A stretch of DNA of 38,966 nt from a virus: positions 1 through 38,966 of the IMG/VR virus record IMGVR_UViG_3300029286_000114; one strand, 5' to 3'. Shown piece after piece: positions 1,448-37,072 of this stretch. Within the stretch, counting starts at the first letter, position 1. Each line of letters opens with the position of its first letter. The translations under genes and the position numbers were made by a program. The notes below the pieces were generated by a model. It searched no databases, had not been told where the DNA came from, and was given only the letters and a program-made list of their open reading frames with translations.

Positions 1448-2065
1448 CTCTCATTGCGTAGCTAAATAAATCATACTTTAGTACTATATCGGAGTAGTAC
1501 TTTAGTAAATTTCCTCGGAATAAAAAACGAGAGAGAGAAAAATATAATCACGTACCAAACAACGTTTACCCAGCCTGCTGGTCGATGGTGTGTGGCTCCT
1601 TAATTATGTTGACATATTTTAGTTCAAACTGCGGAGATCTGCGTGATGCTGAAATAACACAAGCAGCAGTTTGAGGGTCTTGGTCTTTGGTGCAGGGGTG
1701 GGACTAAAATATGGCAAGTGCAAATTGTATTCGTCAATTTGCTTAACGTGATATAAAGAGATGTTGAATTACGAGAGCTGGGGCGGAGCGTTAGCGGAGC
1801 TGAGATAGCAGAGCAAAGCGGAGCGGTCCATGCTGGCATGAGCTCAACAAATAAAATCTTAAGTGCGCCCGCAGGCGCCACCTTTATCCGCCGACAGGCG
1901 GAACGCGCCCGCAGGCGCATAAAGTTCTCTACCTTTCTGAATGTTTTGCAGTTCGCCAGCCGCAGCGGCGAGTTGCAAAACAAAGGCAACCGCAATTACC
2001 AGGCTGGCCGAATGCAGTACAGCCGCAATGCGGGACGCCTTTTTCCCAAAAGAAAACAAGGCTGG

Positions 2066-2106
2066 TTAGCTTCTGTAAATAAATAGTTTACACTGGATTT
2101 ACAGAA
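2066..2106. promoter_or_regulatory. operator-like inverted repeat, distant copy of the 35767-35832 motif
   Basis: TTAGCTTCTGTAAAT (2066-2080) is identical to 35767-35781. A partial inverted copy, ATTTACAGAA, follows at 2097-2106. A third TTTACA lies between them at 2087-2092. The site lies just beyond the 3' end of the minus-strand nuclease gene. It may bind the same protein as the cluster in the replication region. Confidence 0.55.
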
Positions 2107-4104: not shown

Positions 4105-5551
4105 CCTGTATGTAGAATGCTGCGTGTCCTTCCACACGTTCTCATCCTATTGCAAATTGAAGGATGAGGACGCCAAGGAAATCATTCAATATCAGCGGTG
4201 GCCACGGGTTGATGACCTCTTTGAGCTGTGCGAGAACAACCGCTTTGTCATTGTACTGAAAGCCAAACAGGCGGGGATATCCTACTTCACGATAGCCTAT
4301 GCCCTGTGGAAGATGCTTACCGTTCCCATATTCACCATCGCCTACATATCGGCCAGCAAGAAGGCCGGTATCAAGTGGTTGAAGAAGTTGAAGTTAATGT
4401 ACGACATGCTGCCCGACGAGCTGAAGGTACCGATAAAGGAATACAACCAGACGTATCTCGAGTTTGACGGACTGTTGTCTTCCGTGTCCATCTTCTCCAG
4501 CATCAGGCAGCCTGGCCTGGGCGACCACTTCAGCCTGGCCATTGATGACGAGTATGACTTCCACCGGTTCCCTGATGACGACTGGGCGACTATTGAAGCG
4601 ACGACGAACATGGGTGGGTCAGCCATTATCCTGTCCACCCGCAACAAGAAAGCGGGCAATACCCGGTTCTACACCACGTATGTCAAGGCCAAGGAAGGTG
4701 AGAACGAATTCAAACCGTTCTTTATTTCATGTTTCGACAGGCCCGGGCGTGATGAGGAATGGTACGCAACACTTGACAAGAAGTATAAAGGTGAGGAATC
4801 ATGGAGGAAGATGGAAAACTATCCGCGCACTGAAGAGGAAGCTTTATCCCCGCTGACCGGCCTTGCGTTCTTTAACCAGGATACGGCCGTCGGCATTACG
4901 CTACAGCAGCTCGCTGACTCCTGTGTTGAGCCTATCGAGAACCGCGGCGACGTCACGTTCATTTATAAGAAGTATGTGCCCGGGCGGATGTATGTGCTGG
5001 CCGCTGACTGTGCCGTCGGGCAGGGCGGGGATTACCAGGCCGGTACGTTGTGGGAAAAGTCCGGGGCGACGCTGGACCTGGCCGCTGTTATACACTCAAA
5101 GAATATAATGACTGATGCTTTCGCTGTTGAAATTGAGCGATTAGCGGTAGAATATGGTAAGCACCTTGTTGCCGTGGAGGCCAACTCTTACGGTGAAAGT
5201 GTCATTAGCAAACTGGAACAATTGGAATATGGAAACTTATTTTACAGGGACAGAAAGCATAACAAACGTGGTTTCTTTACTGGTAACCAGAAGGAACAGA
5301 TGCTTCGAGAGCTGGGGATTGCGTTCGCAAAGGGCGATATGTCATGCAGGTTCAAGCCGCTCATCAACGAAATGCTTTACTTCCAGCGTACTTCCGCAGG
5401 GATCCGTTGCGTTAAAGGCCATGATGATCTGGTTATGTCGGCCGCTATCGCATGGACCGTGGGGAAAGATCTCTTCAAACCTCTTGAATGGGATGCCGAT
5501 ACTACATCACCCCTTGCAACAATCAGCACCGGGGGCATGTTTGCAGTATAG
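4085..5551 (+). CDS. terL: terminase large subunit (packaging ATPase-nuclease)
   Basis: This is the motor that pumps DNA into the prohead and cuts the concatemer. The ATPase part shows the deviant Walker A typical of many TerL proteins, KAKQAGIS (59-66), Walker B LAIDDEYD (151-158) with the acidic catalytic residues, and the coupling-type motif ILSTR (182-186). The C-terminal RNase-H-like nuclease shows an Asp in AADC (308), a Glu in AVEANS (365) and an Asp pair in GHDDLVM (447-448). At 488 residues the length is normal. It overlaps the preceding gene by 20 bp. The weak site AGAGGAAG lies ahead of the chosen ATG. The portal gene follows 9 bp later. No separate small subunit is recognised. Confidence 0.93.
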   Translation: MPVAQTNLYVECCVSFHTFSSYCKLKDEDAKEIIQYQRWPRVDDLFELCENNRFVIVLKAKQAGISYFTIAYALWKMLTVPIFTIAYISASKKAGIKWLKKLKLMYDMLPDELKVPIKEYNQTYLEFDGLLSSVSIFSSIRQPGLGDHFSLAIDDEYDFHRFPDDDWATIEATTNMGGSAIILSTRNKKAGNTRFYTTYVKAKEGENEFKPFFISCFDRPGRDEEWYATLDKKYKGEESWRKMENYPRTEEEALSPLTGLAFFNQDTAVGITLQQLADSCVEPIENRGDVTFIYKKYVPGRMYVLAADCAVGQGGDYQAGTLWEKSGATLDLAAVIHSKNIMTDAFAVEIERLAVEYGKHLVAVEANSYGESVISKLEQLEYGNLFYRDRKHNKRGFFTGNQKEQMLRELGIAFAKGDMSCRFKPLINEMLYFQRTSAGIRCVKGHDDLVMSAAIAWTVGKDLFKPLEWDADTTSPLATISTGGMFAV

Positions 5552-30385: not shown

Positions 30386-30570
30386 GTGTCCTCCATCGGA
30401 AGTACCTGTTCAGTGTAGCACTTCCATTTCTTTTTCCAGTCATACGCCCGCCTGCCCTGAAACGGGCACGCCAGCGCAAAGAAGCACTTCACGCACCCGC
30501 AGGTTAGCTGCCCTTCCGGGCGTGACCCGCACTTATTACAGGTGTGCGTGATTGGCACAGGTTTACTCAC
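30364..30570 (-). CDS. cysteine-rich zinc-type protein, 68 aa, GTG start
   Basis: The GTG at 30570 forms a GTGA overlap with the stop of the methyltransferase-like gene and has GAGG 7 nt before it. A longer frame starting at 30651 lies within that gene and is unlikely. The protein shows CNKC, CGCVKC and a further Cys near residue 35, suggesting one or two zinc sites. Basic and aromatic residues follow (RRAYDWKKKWKCY). The function is unknown. Confidence 0.6.
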   Translation of the reverse strand: MSKPVPITHTCNKCGSRPEGQLTCGCVKCFFALACPFQGRRAYDWKKKWKCYTEQVLPMEDTWTKNLS

Positions 30571-31133
30571 TGTCCCACCTCTCGCAGTGTTCCCCATTGT
30601 TCTGCCATGGCAAGCGCTATCCCCGATAATGTCCTGCTGCGTTCCTTCCATCGGTCAGGCCCAGGTGGCATACGGTGTACTCTTGCTAATCGGCCTTCAA
30701 CTATACCAGTCGGCCTTAATAAAGGCAGGTTCTTTAGCCATAGGCACGTTGCTTTAACTTCGCCATGTCCGAATTGCCACGGCTGGATTATCTGGTCAGG
30801 CTTGCGTATTCTGCTACTAATAATGCTTATGGGATTTTCAAGAGCTATATGGGGGATTGGTGCATTAAGCAACTGTCGGACAAATTCTAATGCTGATTCT
30901 TGTTCTTGCGGTTTATCCTTAAACCATCGTGCGCCTGATACGGCCAAATGAGTACACGGCGGGTGAGCAATCATCAAGTCCCATCCATCCTCCAGTATTT
31001 CTTGTACGTCACCTTGTATATGGTTGCCGGGGCGTTCTGTTGGCAGTAGGTCGCAGGACCAGGCATCATGCCCACGCCTTGCAAAGGCATCACGCACTAC
31101 CCCACTAAACTCACAGGCTACGAGTATTCTCAC
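30567..31133 (-). CDS. mini cytosine-methyltransferase-like protein, 188 aa
   Basis: The fold is that of DNA cytosine-C5 methyltransferases. Motif I is the cofactor loop ILVACEFSGVVRDAF (3-17), motif IV is the catalytic PPC (58-60, AHPPCTHLA) and motif VI-like is ENP (99-101, ALENP). At 188 residues it is far shorter than ordinary enzymes and shows no clear target-recognition domain or motif X. Phages often carry such short forms, which may modify DNA without a partner endonuclease or act in other ways. The catalytic Cys is present. It lies in an operon of small genes, overlapping both neighbours by 4 bp. Confidence 0.75.
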   Translation of the reverse strand: MRILVACEFSGVVRDAFARRGHDAWSCDLLPTERPGNHIQGDVQEILEDGWDLMIAHPPCTHLAVSGARWFKDKPQEQESALEFVRQLLNAPIPHIALENPISIISSRIRKPDQIIQPWQFGHGEVKATCLWLKNLPLLRPTGIVEGRLARVHRMPPGPDRWKERSRTLSGIALAMAEQWGTLREVGQ

Positions 31134-31408: not shown

Positions 31409-31707
31409 TGTGATGCCTCCAGTTCTTTGTACATTACTTTCAAGGTTCTGATTTTTATACAGTCCTGTTTTTCTTCCTCTGTCCATTCGGCTTTATCAGG
31501 ATGTGCTATCAGATATTCCAGCAGTTTGCGTTGAGCATCTATGGCTATGAATCCACAGTAATGCCCTACGGGACAATGCTGGCAATCGATTAACCCATCA
31601 GGTGTGCGGTCACACGGTAGTCCTGGATGCCGTGTATCCAGTTCACAGTTAGCCACGTTTTTAAGTTCGGCATTGGTTAGTTTCCAGTACGGTAGTGTTA
31701 TCTTCAT
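31405..31707 (-). CDS. paralogue A1 of tandem family, 100 aa
   Basis: The protein starts MKITLPYWKLTNAE and has a Cys-rich part (CELDTRHPGLPCDRTPDGLIDCQHCPVGHYC, residues about 20-50). The segment AIDAQRKLLEYLIA is identical in the 31880-32143 product. An ATG at 31734 also has GGAGG upstream and forms an ATGA overlap. I prefer 31707 because its N-terminus aligns with the paralogue start and GGAGG is close. Function unknown, probably metal-binding through the cysteines. Confidence 0.6.
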   Translation of the reverse strand: MKITLPYWKLTNAELKNVANCELDTRHPGLPCDRTPDGLIDCQHCPVGHYCGFIAIDAQRKLLEYLIAHPDKAEWTEEEKQDCIKIRTLKVMYKELEASQ

Positions 31708-32029
31708 TTCTCCTCCAGTTCCTTTTGTTGTCATTTCTTAACCTCCACTTTTATTTCCTGGCCACAACGAGGGCAGAATATCTTCGGTATATTGATTGGC
31801 ACATTTGCATTAACCGATAGATATGGGCATACAGAAGTTGTGCTATCATGGTAATTGTTACAATAAGGACACCAATAACTCATTTCCTTTCCTCCAGTTG
31901 TTTTAGCATTGATTCAAGCCTAATCAATCTTGCTTTATATATGGTTTCCGCAATTTCGACTAAACCTTTTCCTATCTCGTATTTGCATTCTGCTATCAGA
32001 TATTCCAGCAGTTTGCGTTGAGCATCTAT
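31504..32029. repeat. 39-bp perfect direct repeat within two paralogous genes
   Basis: Positions 31504-31542 and 31991-32029 are identical. They encode the shared AIDAQRKLLEYLIA helix of the two minus-strand paralogues. The genes are otherwise diverged, so the patch may reflect recent conversion or strong selection. Confidence 0.9.
31731..31883 (-). CDS. zinc-ribbon microprotein, 50 aa
   Basis: This 50-codon frame reads MSYWCPYCNNYHDSTTSVC, then a middle of PYLSVNANVPINIPKIF, then CPRCGQEIKVEVKK. That is a complete zinc ribbon with CPYC and CPRC pairs. GGAGGAAAG lies before the ATG, which overlaps the preceding stop (ATGA). Its stop overlaps an ATG downstream. The coupling and ribosome binding site make it a real gene despite its size. 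Confidence 0.7.
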   Translation of the reverse strand: MSYWCPYCNNYHDSTTSVCPYLSVNANVPINIPKIFCPRCGQEIKVEVKK

Positions 32030-32143
32030 CGCACTTTGATATCTTTCGTATGATGCGCAACCGAACCTATTGCGTGGTGGACAATAACTGTCCCTGCTTT
32101 TGCAATCGTCCGTACACAGATTAACTGGTTTCCAGTCATTCAT
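31880..32143 (-). CDS. paralogue A2 of tandem family, 87 aa
   Basis: The N-terminus is Cys-rich (NLCTDDCKSRDSYC, then FGC) and aligns with paralogue A1. AIDAQRKLLEYLIAE is followed by a Lys/Glu-rich helix. AGGAG precedes the ATG at 32143 by about 9 nt (AAGGAGATAGGGTTATG), and a near-identical leader (GGAGCGTAGGGTTATG) precedes the 53-aa zinc gene at 32552, so the leader was copied too. It overlaps both neighbours by 4 bp. Function unknown. Confidence 0.65.
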   Translation of the reverse strand: MNDWKPVNLCTDDCKSRDSYCPPRNRFGCASYERYQSAIDAQRKLLEYLIAECKYEIGKGLVEIAETIYKARLIRLESMLKQLEERK

Positions 32144-32394
32144 AACCCTATCTCCTTGCGGCGTTCTTGCCATGCTTTGCACGACTTTTGTATTATCTCG
32201 CAGTCAGGGGTCATATATTTGCAGGTACACGCTCGGCACTCGGATATCGTGCGCTCCCACCACTCTGCCCACTCTTTATCTGCCTTGGCGAGTTGGGCGG
32301 CGGCACCTTCGTCAAAAGCATTAGCCATAGCATTTTGCAGTCTGGTTGTGATTGTAGTTGATAAGCTGTACCTATATGGATTATTTATACTCAT
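32140..32394 (-). CDS. paralogue B2 of tandem family, 84 aa
   Basis: The product shares its C-terminal half with the 32549-32827 product: AQLAKADKEWAEWWERTISE versus AQLAKTDAEWVEWAETTLRA, TCKYMTPDC versus TCKYHDKNC, and AWQERRKEIGL versus AWQERKRSVGL. The N-terminus differs. The Cys spacing C-x-C-x(6)-C suggests a metal site. The start overlaps the preceding stop as ATGA. No known family. Confidence 0.65.
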   Translation of the reverse strand: MSINNPYRYSLSTTITTRLQNAMANAFDEGAAAQLAKADKEWAEWWERTISECRACTCKYMTPDCEIIQKSCKAWQERRKEIGL

Positions 32395-32552
32395 AATAAG
32401 TCACCTAATTTATATCCTTCACTGACTAACTCCAAACGAGTACCACAAACAGAACATTTCAATTGTCCGCTTCTATCTCTTTTTACATTCTCTTTGGGTA
32501 CACGTTTTTTATTCTTATGACATTTGCTACAATACCAGTAATATTTAATCAT
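32391..32552 (-). CDS. zinc-ribbon microprotein, 53 aa
   Basis: MIKYYWYCSKCHKNKKRV leads into KCSVCGTRLELVSEG, a zinc ribbon with CSKC and CSVC pairs and a Lys/Arg-rich middle, so nucleic-acid binding is plausible. The ATG at 32552 has GGAG 9 nt upstream and overlaps the stop of the gene before it. The longer upstream frame is the out-of-frame tail of the paralogue gene and is not used. Confidence 0.65.
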   Translation of the reverse strand: MIKYYWYCSKCHKNKKRVPKENVKRDRSGQLKCSVCGTRLELVSEGYKLGDLL

Positions 32553-32827
32553 AACCCTACGCTCCTTTTGCGTTCTTGCCATGCTCCGCATAATATATCT
32601 CTGAGATATAGACAGTTCTTATCGTGGTACTTGCAAGTACGTGTAGTACAGGCACGTAATGTGGTTTCTGCCCACTCCACCCACTCTGCATCTGTCTTGG
32701 CGAGTTGGGCAGCGGATATGGCTTCGATGAATTTATGGATTGCTTCCAATTCACATTCCTCTTTGCCGTAGACTTCGTGGAATATCCGCTGGCAGTCCTG
32801 TTCGCTCAATAGTCTATTCGTCAGCAT
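32549..32827 (-). CDS. paralogue B1 of tandem family, about 92 aa
   Basis: This is the partner of the 32140-32394 gene, with the shared half AQLAKTDAEWVEWAETTLRA to AWQERKRSVGL. The N-terminus (LTNRLLSEQDCQRIFHEVYGKEECELEAIHKFI) is helical and unrelated to its twin. Starts at 32842 (ATG) and 32845 (TTG) are also possible; none has a strong ribosome binding site. I chose 32827, which overlaps the preceding stop by 14 bp. Function unknown. Confidence 0.55.
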   Translation of the reverse strand: MLTNRLLSEQDCQRIFHEVYGKEECELEAIHKFIEAISAAQLAKTDAEWVEWAETTLRACTTRTCKYHDKNCLYLRDILCGAWQERKRSVGL

Positions 32828-32948
32828 GATAATCTTCACCATCAATCAATGGCTCTTCTATTGGGACTCGCTTGCACTCACAATCTTCTGCCAGTTCCTT
32901 GCAGGTTTTGCAGTGTGATGGCTGCATGTGTCCGTAGTTGTCTGTCAT
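32814..32948 (-). CDS. Cys/His microprotein, 44 aa
   Basis: This short frame reads MTDNYGHMQPSHCKTCKELA, then EDCECKRVPIEEPLIDGED. It has a CKTC pair with C-x-C nearby and a possible His ligand, which looks like a minimal zinc knuckle. GGGGGGAATA precedes the ATG, which overlaps the preceding TAA. Short, but its composition, ribosome binding site and overlaps are like those of its neighbours. Confidence 0.55.
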   Translation of the reverse strand: MTDNYGHMQPSHCKTCKELAEDCECKRVPIEEPLIDGEDYHADE

Positions 32949-34177: not shown

Positions 34178-34598
34178 ACTGACCTCCATCCGCTGGTACT
34201 GTCGGGTCTAACGGAATGGTAAAGCTCTTAAGTAGCTCGCTCAAATCGGTTGCTTGCTTCTCCTTTAATTCGGTCGGATACTCTGAGATTGTCCCGCGCC
34301 GGCCCATGACATAGCCTATGCACATGCCGGTTATGGTGGCTGACATGGTGACAGCTCTCACTGTGTCGATCATCTCAACGTATTCCTTTGCCTTTGCCCT
34401 GTCGGTTGCGTTGATGATTATGCTGATCATCATCTTGAATGCCAGCTCTTTTATGCGTAGAGCATTATACTTTGCAAAGTCTATGTAAAAGCGGGCAGCA
34501 TTCTCGCATTCCTGTGCTGTCACATCGGTGTTCAGCATGTCGCTCAGTATCTTGTCGGGTCCATCACTTGTATCAAACCCGTGTCCGTTTTGTTTCAA
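34170..34598 (-). CDS. hypothetical protein with a central hydrophobic stretch, 142 aa
   Basis: Unknown family. Mostly helical. Segments FKMMISIIINATDRAKAKEYVEMI and TMSATITGMCIGYVMGRRG are hydrophobic enough for membrane contact, though neither is a clear transmembrane helix. Its start overlaps the ATPase gene end by 26 bp, so the two are cotranscribed. It may assist replication or recombination, but nothing in it says how. Confidence 0.6.
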   Translation of the reverse strand: MKQNGHGFDTSDGPDKILSDMLNTDVTAQECENAARFYIDFAKYNALRIKELAFKMMISIIINATDRAKAKEYVEMIDTVRAVTMSATITGMCIGYVMGRRGTISEYPTELKEKQATDLSELLKSFTIPLDPTVPADGGQYE

Positions 34599-35694
34599 TG
34601 AATGTAACTCCTTCGGGCAGTATTAGATTTTTGGGTGGCAATACTACCCGCATTACTGGTTCGCCATGTGGCCATACCCTGTGTGTTTCGGTAAGAGTAG
34701 ATCCGCCATCTGATACCTTGTAGAATATCTTCAGTCCAACCGGTGATTGCGTGAGCTTGTGCAGCTTCATCGTCTTGACAATCAGCCAGTTAAACACATC
34801 TCCACGATTAAGGGTACAGTATATCCTGGCCTTTTCCCTTGACTTGTCGGCACCCATGCCGAGTTCTTTGAACGCATCCTTCTGTATGAATATAACGGCA
34901 ACGCCTCCCTCAAGCGCATCATGGATGTCACGGATCTGGTCACTTATCATGGCATACTCGCCGTCCCGGACCTCCATGTAATCCACGATATTCAATCCAT
35001 CAGGAATAATGTAGTCTGCGTAGTTTCTATTGCAGCTGTACATTTCGTGCGTCCATTCTTGGATCATGACATCAGTGTGATTCATTAGCCTGGCTTTGAT
35101 TTCCTCCGGGCCTGCCTCAGAATTCAAGAGCCTGATAGGTTGTGGTATCTTGACATTCCGTATATTATTCTTTATTATGTTGTGTGCAAAAGTGGACTTG
35201 GCAGAATCCTTTTCACCCGCGAACATGATGATTGACTTCGGGTAGATGTCACAATACTTGTGAAGGTCAAAAGGCAGCCACATGTCAAAGACCTTGCCAG
35301 TGTCGGCTGACTGCCAGTCTACTTTCTCTAAGGCCTGGCCCTTCACCCTGTACTTACCTTCAATTTTCCTGTTCGGCTCCAGCTTGCCGGCATCCTTCAT
35401 CTGCTTGACCGCCATCCTTGCGATACTGCGGTCTTGCGCTGTGCTCAACATGAGGTCACGATACATATCCGTGTAAGTGAACCAGGTTGTAGTGTTCTTG
35501 ATGTATTCCTTTACCTTGCTGGTAAGTGTCTGGTCCTGAGGCGGGTTCTCCAGGCAGGCTTCCCTGACAATGTCAACCACTTCATCCTCTGTCAATTGTC
35601 CGTTTGCGTTGCGCACATACCGGTGCACTGTGTTGAGATCCGCCCCTCCACTCCGTAGAATCTGTGCCATTTTTGTCAGTTCAATTCTTTCCAT
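34573..35694 (-). CDS. RecA/RadA-like ATPase with N-terminal winged helix, 373 aa
   Basis: The N-terminal half includes a winged-helix-like region (near 55-120, DRSIARMAVKQMKDAGKLE then a KYRVKG wing). The ATPase core has a P-loop GEKDSAKST (160-168) that carries Ala where Gly is usual before the Lys, an ADP-facing Glu in NSEAGPEE (E193), and a Walker-B-like strand VAVIFIQKD (265-273). This points to a DNA-dependent RecA-family motor such as a recombinase, helicase loader or replication ATPase. The gene lies beside an ssDNA-binding-like and a Cas4-like gene, forming a replication/recombination module. GGAGG is 5 nt before the ATG, and the operator cluster lies upstream. Confidence 0.7.
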   Translation of the reverse strand: MERIELTKMAQILRSGGADLNTVHRYVRNANGQLTEDEVVDIVREACLENPPQDQTLTSKVKEYIKNTTTWFTYTDMYRDLMLSTAQDRSIARMAVKQMKDAGKLEPNRKIEGKYRVKGQALEKVDWQSADTGKVFDMWLPFDLHKYCDIYPKSIIMFAGEKDSAKSTFAHNIIKNNIRNVKIPQPIRLLNSEAGPEEIKARLMNHTDVMIQEWTHEMYSCNRNYADYIIPDGLNIVDYMEVRDGEYAMISDQIRDIHDALEGGVAVIFIQKDAFKELGMGADKSREKARIYCTLNRGDVFNWLIVKTMKLHKLTQSPVGLKIFYKVSDGGSTLTETHRVWPHGEPVMRVVLPPKNLILPEGVTFIETKRTRV

Positions 35695-35710
35695 GCCTAC
35701 CTCCGAAATA

Positions 35711-35746
35711 AGCGTACCGGCGAAGCATACACCCCGCCGGCACGCT
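35711..35746 (-). promoter_or_regulatory. leader hairpin of the ATPase gene
   Basis: AGCGT-A-CCGGC (35711-35721) pairs with GCCGG-C-ACGCT (35736-35746), an 11-bp stem with one A.C mismatch and a 14-nt loop. It lies about 17 bp upstream of the ATPase start and could act as a 5' untranslated attenuator or stabiliser. Confidence 0.45.
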
Positions 35747-35766
35747 TTGGCAAGTCTGATCGTAAC

Positions 35767-35832
35767 TTAGCTTCTGTAAATTCTGTGTAAATTTTTCGTT
35801 TACAGAAGCTAACTACTAATTTACAGAAGCTA
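35767..35832. promoter_or_regulatory. operator cluster: TTAGCTTCTGTAAAT and inverted copies
   Basis: One copy runs TTAGCTTCTGTAAAT (35767-35781). Its exact inverted form TTTACAGAAGCTAA lies at 35799-35812 and again as ATTTACAGAAGCTA at 35819-35832, 20 bp (two helical turns) further on. A weaker TTCTGTGTAAAT lies at 35781-35792. The cluster fills the gap before the ATPase gene and covers the stop of the ssDNA-binding-like gene. The same motif occurs at 2066-2106. A repressor or replication-initiator binding array is the simplest reading. Confidence 0.65.
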
Positions 35833-36237
35833 TTCAGTTTTAGCAGCGGGTTTGATGGCAGCGTAAATGGCCTGTATGGCCTGTGCCATTTCGAGTCCGA
35901 AGTCTTTGACCAGGTCGGAGCGGAGTGCACCGTCCTTAGTCAGTGTCGGCAGCTGGCCGGCAACCATCAGGTCAATAACGCCCTTGTAGGCCACCTGTGC
36001 TATGATGATCTCGTTGTCCCGCGGTGCGCTGCGGTACCCGCCTCCACCACCACCGGCCCTCTTCACGAAGTAAGACTCGCCGTCCTTGGACAGCTCAACT
36101 TCCTGGGTGAACTCGTCAAGCTGCTTGAACGGACCGCCGAATGCTATGACCGGCTTGTCCAAGCCTTCGATGGCCAGCTTGAAATACTCCTTCCCATCCT
36201 TGCTTGTCTTTTTCTCAGCTAAGAGAATTTTCCCCAT
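35830..36237 (-). CDS. possible ssDNA-binding/OB-fold protein, 135 aa
   Basis: The first 60 residues look like one small beta-rich domain with charged strands (KILLAEKKTSKDGKEYFKLAIEGL, IAFGGPF). A Gly-rich hinge follows (RAGGGGGGYRSAP), then a helical C-terminal half (MAQAIQAIYAAIK). The neighbours are a RecA-like ATPase and a Cas4/RecB-like nuclease, the usual partners of phage single-strand binding proteins. The sequence itself has no decisive motif, so this call is from context. GGAGGAAG precedes the ATG, and it overlaps the nuclease gene by 23 bp. Confidence 0.5.
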   Translation of the reverse strand: MGKILLAEKKTSKDGKEYFKLAIEGLDKPVIAFGGPFKQLDEFTQEVELSKDGESYFVKRAGGGGGGYRSAPRDNEIIIAQVAYKGVIDLMVAGQLPTLTKDGALRSDLVKDFGLEMAQAIQAIYAAIKPAAKTE

Positions 36238-37072
36238 TGTCTTCCTCCTGTATAAACTTTGCTTCGAGTCCGTAGTTACAAAATTCTACGACATCGCAAT
36301 ACTTACAGCGGTTTCCACCCCACCGTTCTTCAACTGTGCAGAGTGGCGGGATCTCACCGCTGGTAATAGCCAGGCTCAACTTGTCTGCCTTCTCGGCAAA
36401 GTAATTGAGCACGGTCGCGTCTTCCATTGGTTGAATGATGATGTCATACCATGGCCTTGTAATGCCACGGCTGTATGCTATGCGCAATTCCGCATCCTTT
36501 ACTATGACGAACAGTTTCATCAGGTCAACATCTGGCAGCTTGCCCTTTGCCAGTATCCTGTACATGTTGAGCTGAAGGGTTTCTTCATCAAGTTCAGGCT
36601 CGCCTCCGGGCACATAGGAATTGATAGGCTTGCCTGTCTTCGGACTTGGTACCTTGACTGACCTCATGCCCAGCGCCCGCGCTACCCGGTATGAACCCCA
36701 TACCTTGTAGTCCCACAATATCCCTTCATCAACCAGGTCTATTGTACCGGACACCCAGTCATTAGATACGGTCTGTTCCATCGCAAACAGTCCGCTCTTT
36801 TCATTGCTATTCATTTCATGCATGGCTGTGCCGTAGAATGCTTTAATTGCACCCTCTGGCTTAATATAAATTGCGCTGATTTCCCGCAAGTATGCAATCC
36901 TTGTCGGGGATATCAGTTGAGTGACTGAGTATTTGCCATCTATTCTTTCCTTGTTACGCGCCAGCTTGAGCAGGATAGGCCGGGGCAAGCAACGCTTCGG
37001 CATCCTGCAATTCGATATGCATTCGGCGGCGCCGATCTTTGTGGTATCAGGGCATATAAACCCTACTATCAT
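36215..37072 (-). CDS. Cas4/RecB-family nuclease with Cys clusters, 285 aa
   Basis: This is a PD-(D/E)XK nuclease of the RecB/Cas4 type. Motifs are YGTAMHE (H85), GTIDLV (D112), LWDYKVW (D121, K123) and the QxxxY motif LQLNMYR (Q167, Y171). C245, C256, C259 and C265 near the C-terminus fit a Cas4-like Fe-S cluster. Four more Cys lie within the first 28 residues (C7, C18, C22, C28). Phage proteins of this type act as exonucleases in replication or recombination. No CRISPR array is present. A near-perfect AAAGGAGGT ribosome binding site precedes the ATG. Confidence 0.82.
   Translation of the reverse strand: MIVGFICPDTTKIGAAECISNCRMPKRCLPRPILLKLARNKERIDGKYSVTQLISPTRIAYLREISAIYIKPEGAIKAFYGTAMHEMNSNEKSGLFAMEQTVSNDWVSGTIDLVDEGILWDYKVWGSYRVARALGMRSVKVPSPKTGKPINSYVPGGEPELDEETLQLNMYRILAKGKLPDVDLMKLFVIVKDAELRIAYSRGITRPWYDIIIQPMEDATVLNYFAEKADKLSLAITSGEIPPLCTVEERWGGNRCKYCDVVEFCNYGLEAKFIQEEDNGENSLS

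Follow-up and report, generated by a model that had tools for sequence, protein, structure and literature searches.

What is the function of two copies of a short repeat array that lie far apart in the genome of a phage? The stretch of DNA analysed here (the window), a virus record 38,966 bases in length, comes from a tailed phage with terminase and capsid genes. A sequence-only reading of this DNA had drawn attention to a 15-bp motif present at two distant places and proposed that it might serve a regulator of early genes, a replication initiator or a pair of recombination sites. Our analysis favours the second of these: the two sites (designated A and B) are probably binding arrays for a phage replication initiator, most likely the wHTH domain of the helicase encoded beside site A.

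The repeat itself is real. The 15-mer TTAGCTTCTGTAAAT occurs exactly at 35767-35781 (box A1, plus strand) and at 2066-2080 (box B1, plus strand), and inverted copies are present on the minus strand at both places, as had been claimed: box A3 (TTAGCTTCTGTAAAC, 35798-35812) and box A4 (ATAGCTTCTGTAAAT, 35819-35833) each carry one mismatch, whilst box B3 (CTACGTTCTGTAAAT, 2097-2111) carries three. Two details needed correction: A3 and A4 are 21 bp apart, start to start, rather than exactly 20 bp, and the array ends at 35833 rather than 35832, with box A4 overlapping the stop codon of the ORF at 35830-36237. A third type of box had also been overlooked. This is TTCTGTGTAAAT at 35781-35792 (box A2, plus strand), which lies 11 bp, or one helical turn, from A1, and its counterpart at site B is TCCAGTGTAAAC on the minus strand at 2086-2097 (box B2). 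Likewise, B1 is the counterpart of A3 and B3 that of A1.

These boxes, A4 excepted, belong to an asymmetric 42-bp module, copy A of which (35772-35813, plus strand) is identical to the reverse complement of copy B (2065-2106, minus strand) at 36 of 42 ungapped positions; the two modules are inverted relative to each other. The module consensus is TTCTGTAAAT-[TC]C[TA]GTGTAAA[TC]-T.TT..-TTTACAGAAGCTAAC. In each copy, two TGTAAA boxes 11 bp apart face an inverted box 13 bp further on, and site A has, in addition to what is seen at site B, one more inverted box another 21 bp on. The boxes are conserved over 13-15 bp, are partly inverted and are phased at 11 and 21 bp. Whether the motif exceeds chance depends on which unit is considered: the exact 15-bp repeat by itself is near the chance level (1.4 expected in 39 kb), whereas the 42-bp module has a chance expectation of 3e-7, scores 27 against no more than 18 in 20 whole-window shuffles and constitutes the longest inverted pair within the window. 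A scan for TTAGCTTCTGTAAAT allowing up to three mismatches gave five matches where 1.07 were expected, a number reached in none of 100 shuffles.

Two other types of origin were considered and rejected. No DnaA box (TTATCCACA, up to one mismatch), such as a DnaA-dependent origin would be expected to have, is found within 2 kb of A or B. Box B2 is one mismatch away from what we take to be the archaeal ORB-like core sequence; the other boxes do not match this core. GC skew tracks gene strand across the window and is uninformative on the location of an origin.

Site A lies within a leftward operon. The leftward genes at 30-38.9 kb include those for an HNH nuclease, the helicase (34573-35694, minus strand), a small SSB-like protein (35830-36237, minus strand) and an exonuclease-like protein (36215-37072, minus strand; phrog_2139, E 2e-17), and site A separates the SSB-like ORF from the helicase gene, the start codon of which is about 73 bp from box A1. 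The putative SSB-like product is a small protein with a Gly-rich stretch but has no family or PDB match and gives only a low-confidence single-sequence model (pLDDT 44); the earlier description of it as ssDNA-binding-like therefore finds no database support, whilst that of its neighbour as a RecA-like ATPase holds and can be refined to a wHTH plus a DnaB-like helicase. Site B is found 15 bp beyond the 3' end of the NERD-like ORF 2126-2467. It is non-coding, as originally described, but lies at the edge of a 785-bp gap rather than inside it, and about 1.2 kb beyond it rightward genes begin. Were the genome circular, A and B would be 5.3 kb apart by the shorter route. In 60-bp windows, the AT content of site A is in the 98th percentile and that of site B, which has an AT-rich right flank, in the 95th, although in absolute terms both are moderate (65-70%).

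Between site A and the helicase start there is a strong GC-rich hairpin (35710-35747, minus strand), a candidate attenuator or origin structure. An RNA spanning 35695-35850 folds far better than shuffled sequences (z -5.5, with none of 200 shuffles as good), and this raises the question of whether the inverted arms of the array, together with the adjoining hairpin, act as an RNA structure in the helicase mRNA leader that regulates translation or termination. We consider this very improbable. The arms of copy B pair imperfectly (AGCT versus ACGT) and the inner box GTGTAAA, which would be unpaired, is conserved, both of which fit DNA binding better, and there is no Rfam match at the site.

The protein encoded next to site A is of particular relevance. 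On its own it has no Pfam match, but an AlphaFold2 model (pLDDT 85) places a wHTH at about residues 57-118, between an N-terminal helical segment and a DnaB/RecA-like core, and the best Foldseek matches of the model are to DnaB (E 7e-11). The protein is a replicative-type helicase with its own predicted DNA-binding domain. In tblastn searches it matches Methanosarcina virus MetMV (30.5%, E 6e-29) and also Methanomicrobiales virus vir555, and in both of these viruses the homologous domain sits after a Prim-Pol domain, which is absent from the window. An alignment search yielded relatives at 44 IMG/VR loci (L numbers below); DnaB_C was found in 21 of 25 alignment members and Prim-Pol in 13 of 25. 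No copy of the helicase was seen at E<=1e-12 among 798 host genomes from two phyla, in a search run without a positive control. A further protein of 188 amino acids, encoded at 30567-31133 in the window and with no Pfam match, has counterparts 50-60% identical to it near the helicase genes of L178, L189, L191 and L199.

Is there evidence for comparable arrays in these relatives? Many have their own boxes of about 7 bp, phased at about 10.5 bp, either just upstream of the helicase gene or inside it. Upstream arrays that were matched in none of 200 shuffles each are seen in L173 (six copies of TGTAAC), L168 (seven of GACGACA) and L203 (six of TATACAA); by this 7-mer test upstream arrays are significant in only three of 31 relatives, and site A of the window is not significant by the same test. 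In L173, two perfect DnaA boxes (TTATCCACA) accompany the six TGTAAC boxes about 100-225 bp upstream of position 4340, which suggests that the host is a bacterium and that DnaA assists at the phage origin.

In many of the fused primase-helicases a different arrangement is found, in which an identical box is present both in the linker between primase and helicase (at roughly -260 to -140 nt relative to where the wHTH starts) and within the codons of the wHTH itself, typically at +30, +51, +71 and +81. The boxes are lineage-specific and of at least six types, examples being GTCTACA, GTTACA, GACCACA, GTCGTCA, GTCAACA and TTGTTAA. Loci with boxes in the linker and in the wHTH codons include L181, L183, L184, L190, L192, L194, L196 and L205; the deposited MetMV sequence (MK170447, 2513-4195) has linker and wHTH-codon boxes too, as does an out-of-sample genome from another collection, found afterwards, which has a new box, AGTCACA. 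An AT-rich stretch (typically 70-85%) is located ahead of the linker array in most relatives. Box spacings cluster at 9-11 and 19-22 bp, with a vector length of 0.85 at 10.5 bp (n=130). The boxes within the wHTH exceed the number seen in synonymous-codon shuffles in 16 of 16 phages (p<=0.0075) and in many phages occupy more than one reading frame; for these two reasons they are held to be kept as DNA. The relatives' boxes are mostly same-strand and 6-8 bp in length and in these respects differ from the longer, partly inverted boxes of the window. Nor does the window have a matching array in its wHTH codons, or any box common to these codons and the upstream region.

Arrays of GTGTAAA/TTTACAC, with boxes often 11 bp apart, were also observed directly after the primase-helicase gene in L210 (5196-5472), L213 (1602-1865) and L214 (3199-3464), where the primase-helicase is apparently a different one. 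L178 has clear simple inverted repeats ahead of its helicase gene and a few other relatives have weak ones, without any common pattern. Long inverted repeats in the helicase leader were noted in L196 (4080-4270), L202 (3990-4130) and L178 (2550-2700); those of L178 and L196 come after a sigma-70-like promoter and have no Rfam match there. It is possible that all three are leader RNA structures.

If the wHTH recognises the boxes, then the two should change together. Across 298 phage pairs, the identity of the recognition helix (a3) is 0.515 when the box is the same and 0.267 otherwise, whilst the corresponding values for the RecA core are 0.458 and 0.412. After regression on RecA identity, a residual of +0.22 remains (p<=0.0005 by label permutation), a p value that is optimistic in that labels were permuted ignoring the tree; relatedness was controlled only linearly. 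A single pair of loci makes the same point: between the proteins encoded at 4839-5831 in L163 and at 4839-5831 in L170, identity is 85% for the RecA core and 76% for the N-terminus but only 30% across wHTH helices a1-a3, and the box is GTTACA in L163 and TCTACA in L170. By all appearances, this is a natural specificity swap in which the wHTH was replaced and the boxes changed. Counting against a strict pairing, L165 and L163 have nearly the same a3 but slightly different boxes. These comparisons provide strong, if indirect, grounds for believing that the wHTH binds the boxes across this family of wHTH-DnaB-like helicases. For the window itself, the closest a3 helices belong to L183, L185 and L173, the boxes of which (GTTACA/TGTTACA) are one base from the window's TTTACA; the likeness is suggestive only, two of these three being related, and when all phages are ranked, box similarity and a3 similarity to the window are uncorrelated (Spearman -0.13).

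We also searched for the motif of the window in other genomes. Exact matches to TTAGCTTCTGTAAAT in IMG/VR were, among those listed, single and at chance level, and a pattern of two arms separated by 18 bp gave four matches in viral and 31 in genome contigs, none of them module-like outside the arms. Near relatives sought by helicase, terminase and capsid amounted to one near-identical 11-kb fragment that does not include sites A and B. In 19 records (18 relatives and this fragment), matches with up to two mismatches were scattered and single, with none adjoining at the helicase; the 42-bp module is present in no relative examined, and no close relative was found that covers A or B. No copy of the helicase-upstream region recurs elsewhere above shuffles in eight relative genomes, so that a second copy like site B is so far particular to the window. 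It had been suggested that a lack of conservation in relatives would count against a functional site: the outcome is mixed, since the sequence of the motif is indeed not conserved but the position and kind of element recur.

Taken together, these results favour the initiator because there is a replicative-type helicase beside site A and because the arrays at or in the helicase genes of relatives covary with the wHTH. Site A is read as an origin since it is homologous in position and architecture to the relatives' arrays. According to this model, the wHTH would bind the boxes of site A on one face of the DNA and oligomerise, and the oligomer would then melt AT-rich DNA and load its own helicase domain. 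Site A would be the origin, probably also controlling the helicase gene, whilst site B may be either a further origin or a site of initiator binding that serves control or fork stalling, in the way that oriR does in SPP1.

The main rival, though distinctly less probable, is that A and B are transcription operators at which a regulator of phage or host origin would govern the leftward helicase operon (from A) and the rightward late region (from B). The mirror orientation of the modules would suit divergent control of the OL/OR type, with A between two genes of the leftward operon close to the helicase start and B ahead of the rightward genes, and long, partly palindromic boxes in helical phase resemble a dimer operator. 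However, Pfam revealed no HTH regulator among the 40 ORFs of the window that were scanned, on a contig that may be incomplete, our scans placed no sigma-70-like promoter over A or B and arrays inside coding sequence, as found in relatives, suit origins rather than operators. Initiators often repress their own genes, so origin and operator functions can coexist and a regulatory role remains compatible with the initiator. The proposal that A and B act as a pair in site-specific recombination, resolution or partition fares much worse, and we think it highly unlikely. Such a role would be in keeping with a partly palindromic site that is present in two inverted copies, one of them (B) in non-coding DNA. 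However, the 18 bp between the arm cores does not fit the core of a tyrosine recombinase, the families searched yielded no integrase, resolvase or ParB-like gene and such arrays are linked to the helicase gene in relatives.

How does an initiator-binding pair of sites compare with what is known elsewhere? In Bacillus phage SPP1, gp38 binds two origins: oriL, which is located inside gene 38, and oriR, which is intergenic. Stalling of forks at oriR is the proposed trigger of the switch to rolling circle replication (PMC6316719). The window resembles SPP1 in having the same repeat organisation (36/42) at two distant sites, one among replication genes and the other intergenic, in an AT-rich region with repeats, and in the exonuclease, SSB(-like) and DnaB-family helicase genes found nearby. 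As with oriL and oriR, the most likely reading is that A is an origin bound by the initiator and that B is its second copy. Whereas origin binding and loading in SPP1 fall to separate proteins (gp38 and gp39, respectively), the window encodes a helicase with its own wHTH, and the likeness is one of organisation, with no sequence homology shown; the early ORFs searched gave no PHROGs or Pfam match to gp38- or gp39-like genes, many small ORFs having no match of any kind.

In lambda, TP901-1 and Tuc2009, the origin lies within the initiator gene (PMC7466680, PMC8965321). The relatives' boxes inside the initiator gene, beside an AT-rich stretch, are reminiscent of this, and iterons of the lambda O type within the gene are present in many relatives but absent from the window, where the array is outside the gene. 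The relatives depart from the lambda O type in that boxes are also found in DNA-binding-domain codons and in that a (primase-)helicase takes the place of an initiator that recruits a loader. The SaPI Rep and SCCmec Cch2 helicases bind iterons adjacent to their own genes (PMC7581432) and are thus similar to the window protein, with its predicted DNA-binding domain and short repeats beside the gene. In these proteins, however, the DNA-binding domain is C-terminal and the helicase is of another family, and the SaPI origin is downstream of the gene, whereas the window has an N-terminal wHTH, a DnaB/RecA-like core and an upstream array; given this core, membership of the Rep/Cch2 family was rejected. 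Finally, ORF904 of the archaeal plasmid pRN1 has a Prim-Pol related to that of the fused relatives and a winged helix in its replication protein but differs in its SF3 helicase and its stem-loop origin without iterons (PMC4234260), and the window has no Prim-Pol. The window is best classed with the iteron-type phage origins, as a variant.

A broader proposal, which we put forward tentatively and with slightly less than even confidence, is that viral initiator helicases of the wHTH-DnaB-like type, often fused to Prim-Pol, carry origin boxes in the codons of their own DNA-binding domain; domain and binding site could then move as one cassette and change specificity jointly. The window would then be a member of this group with its array upstream and a second copy elsewhere. 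We found no paper on boxes inside the DNA-binding-domain codons of such helicases in the literature covered, which was mostly outside subscription journals. Sequence seldom reveals where the origins of uncultivated phages lie, and the covariation seen here between a protein family and its boxes could make origins and initiator specificity predictable for a group of viruses that includes viruses of methanogens. If it is true that the wHTH reads boxes in its own codons, this would be a compact, self-contained specificity cassette, and natural swaps such as that between L163 and L170 make a joint change of initiator and origin testable.

Several other repeats were noted in the window. Many short GC-rich palindromes (such as GCGCCCGCAGGCGC) are found in non-coding DNA at 1-240, 1770-2040 and 2800-2960, and at the end of the contig a stretch of 63 bp is exactly and directly repeated (2-64 and 127-189). 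Within 31504-32845, segments of 42-44 bp are repeated in small leftward ORFs (31504/31991, 32140/32549 and 32260/32672), suggesting duplicated small genes.
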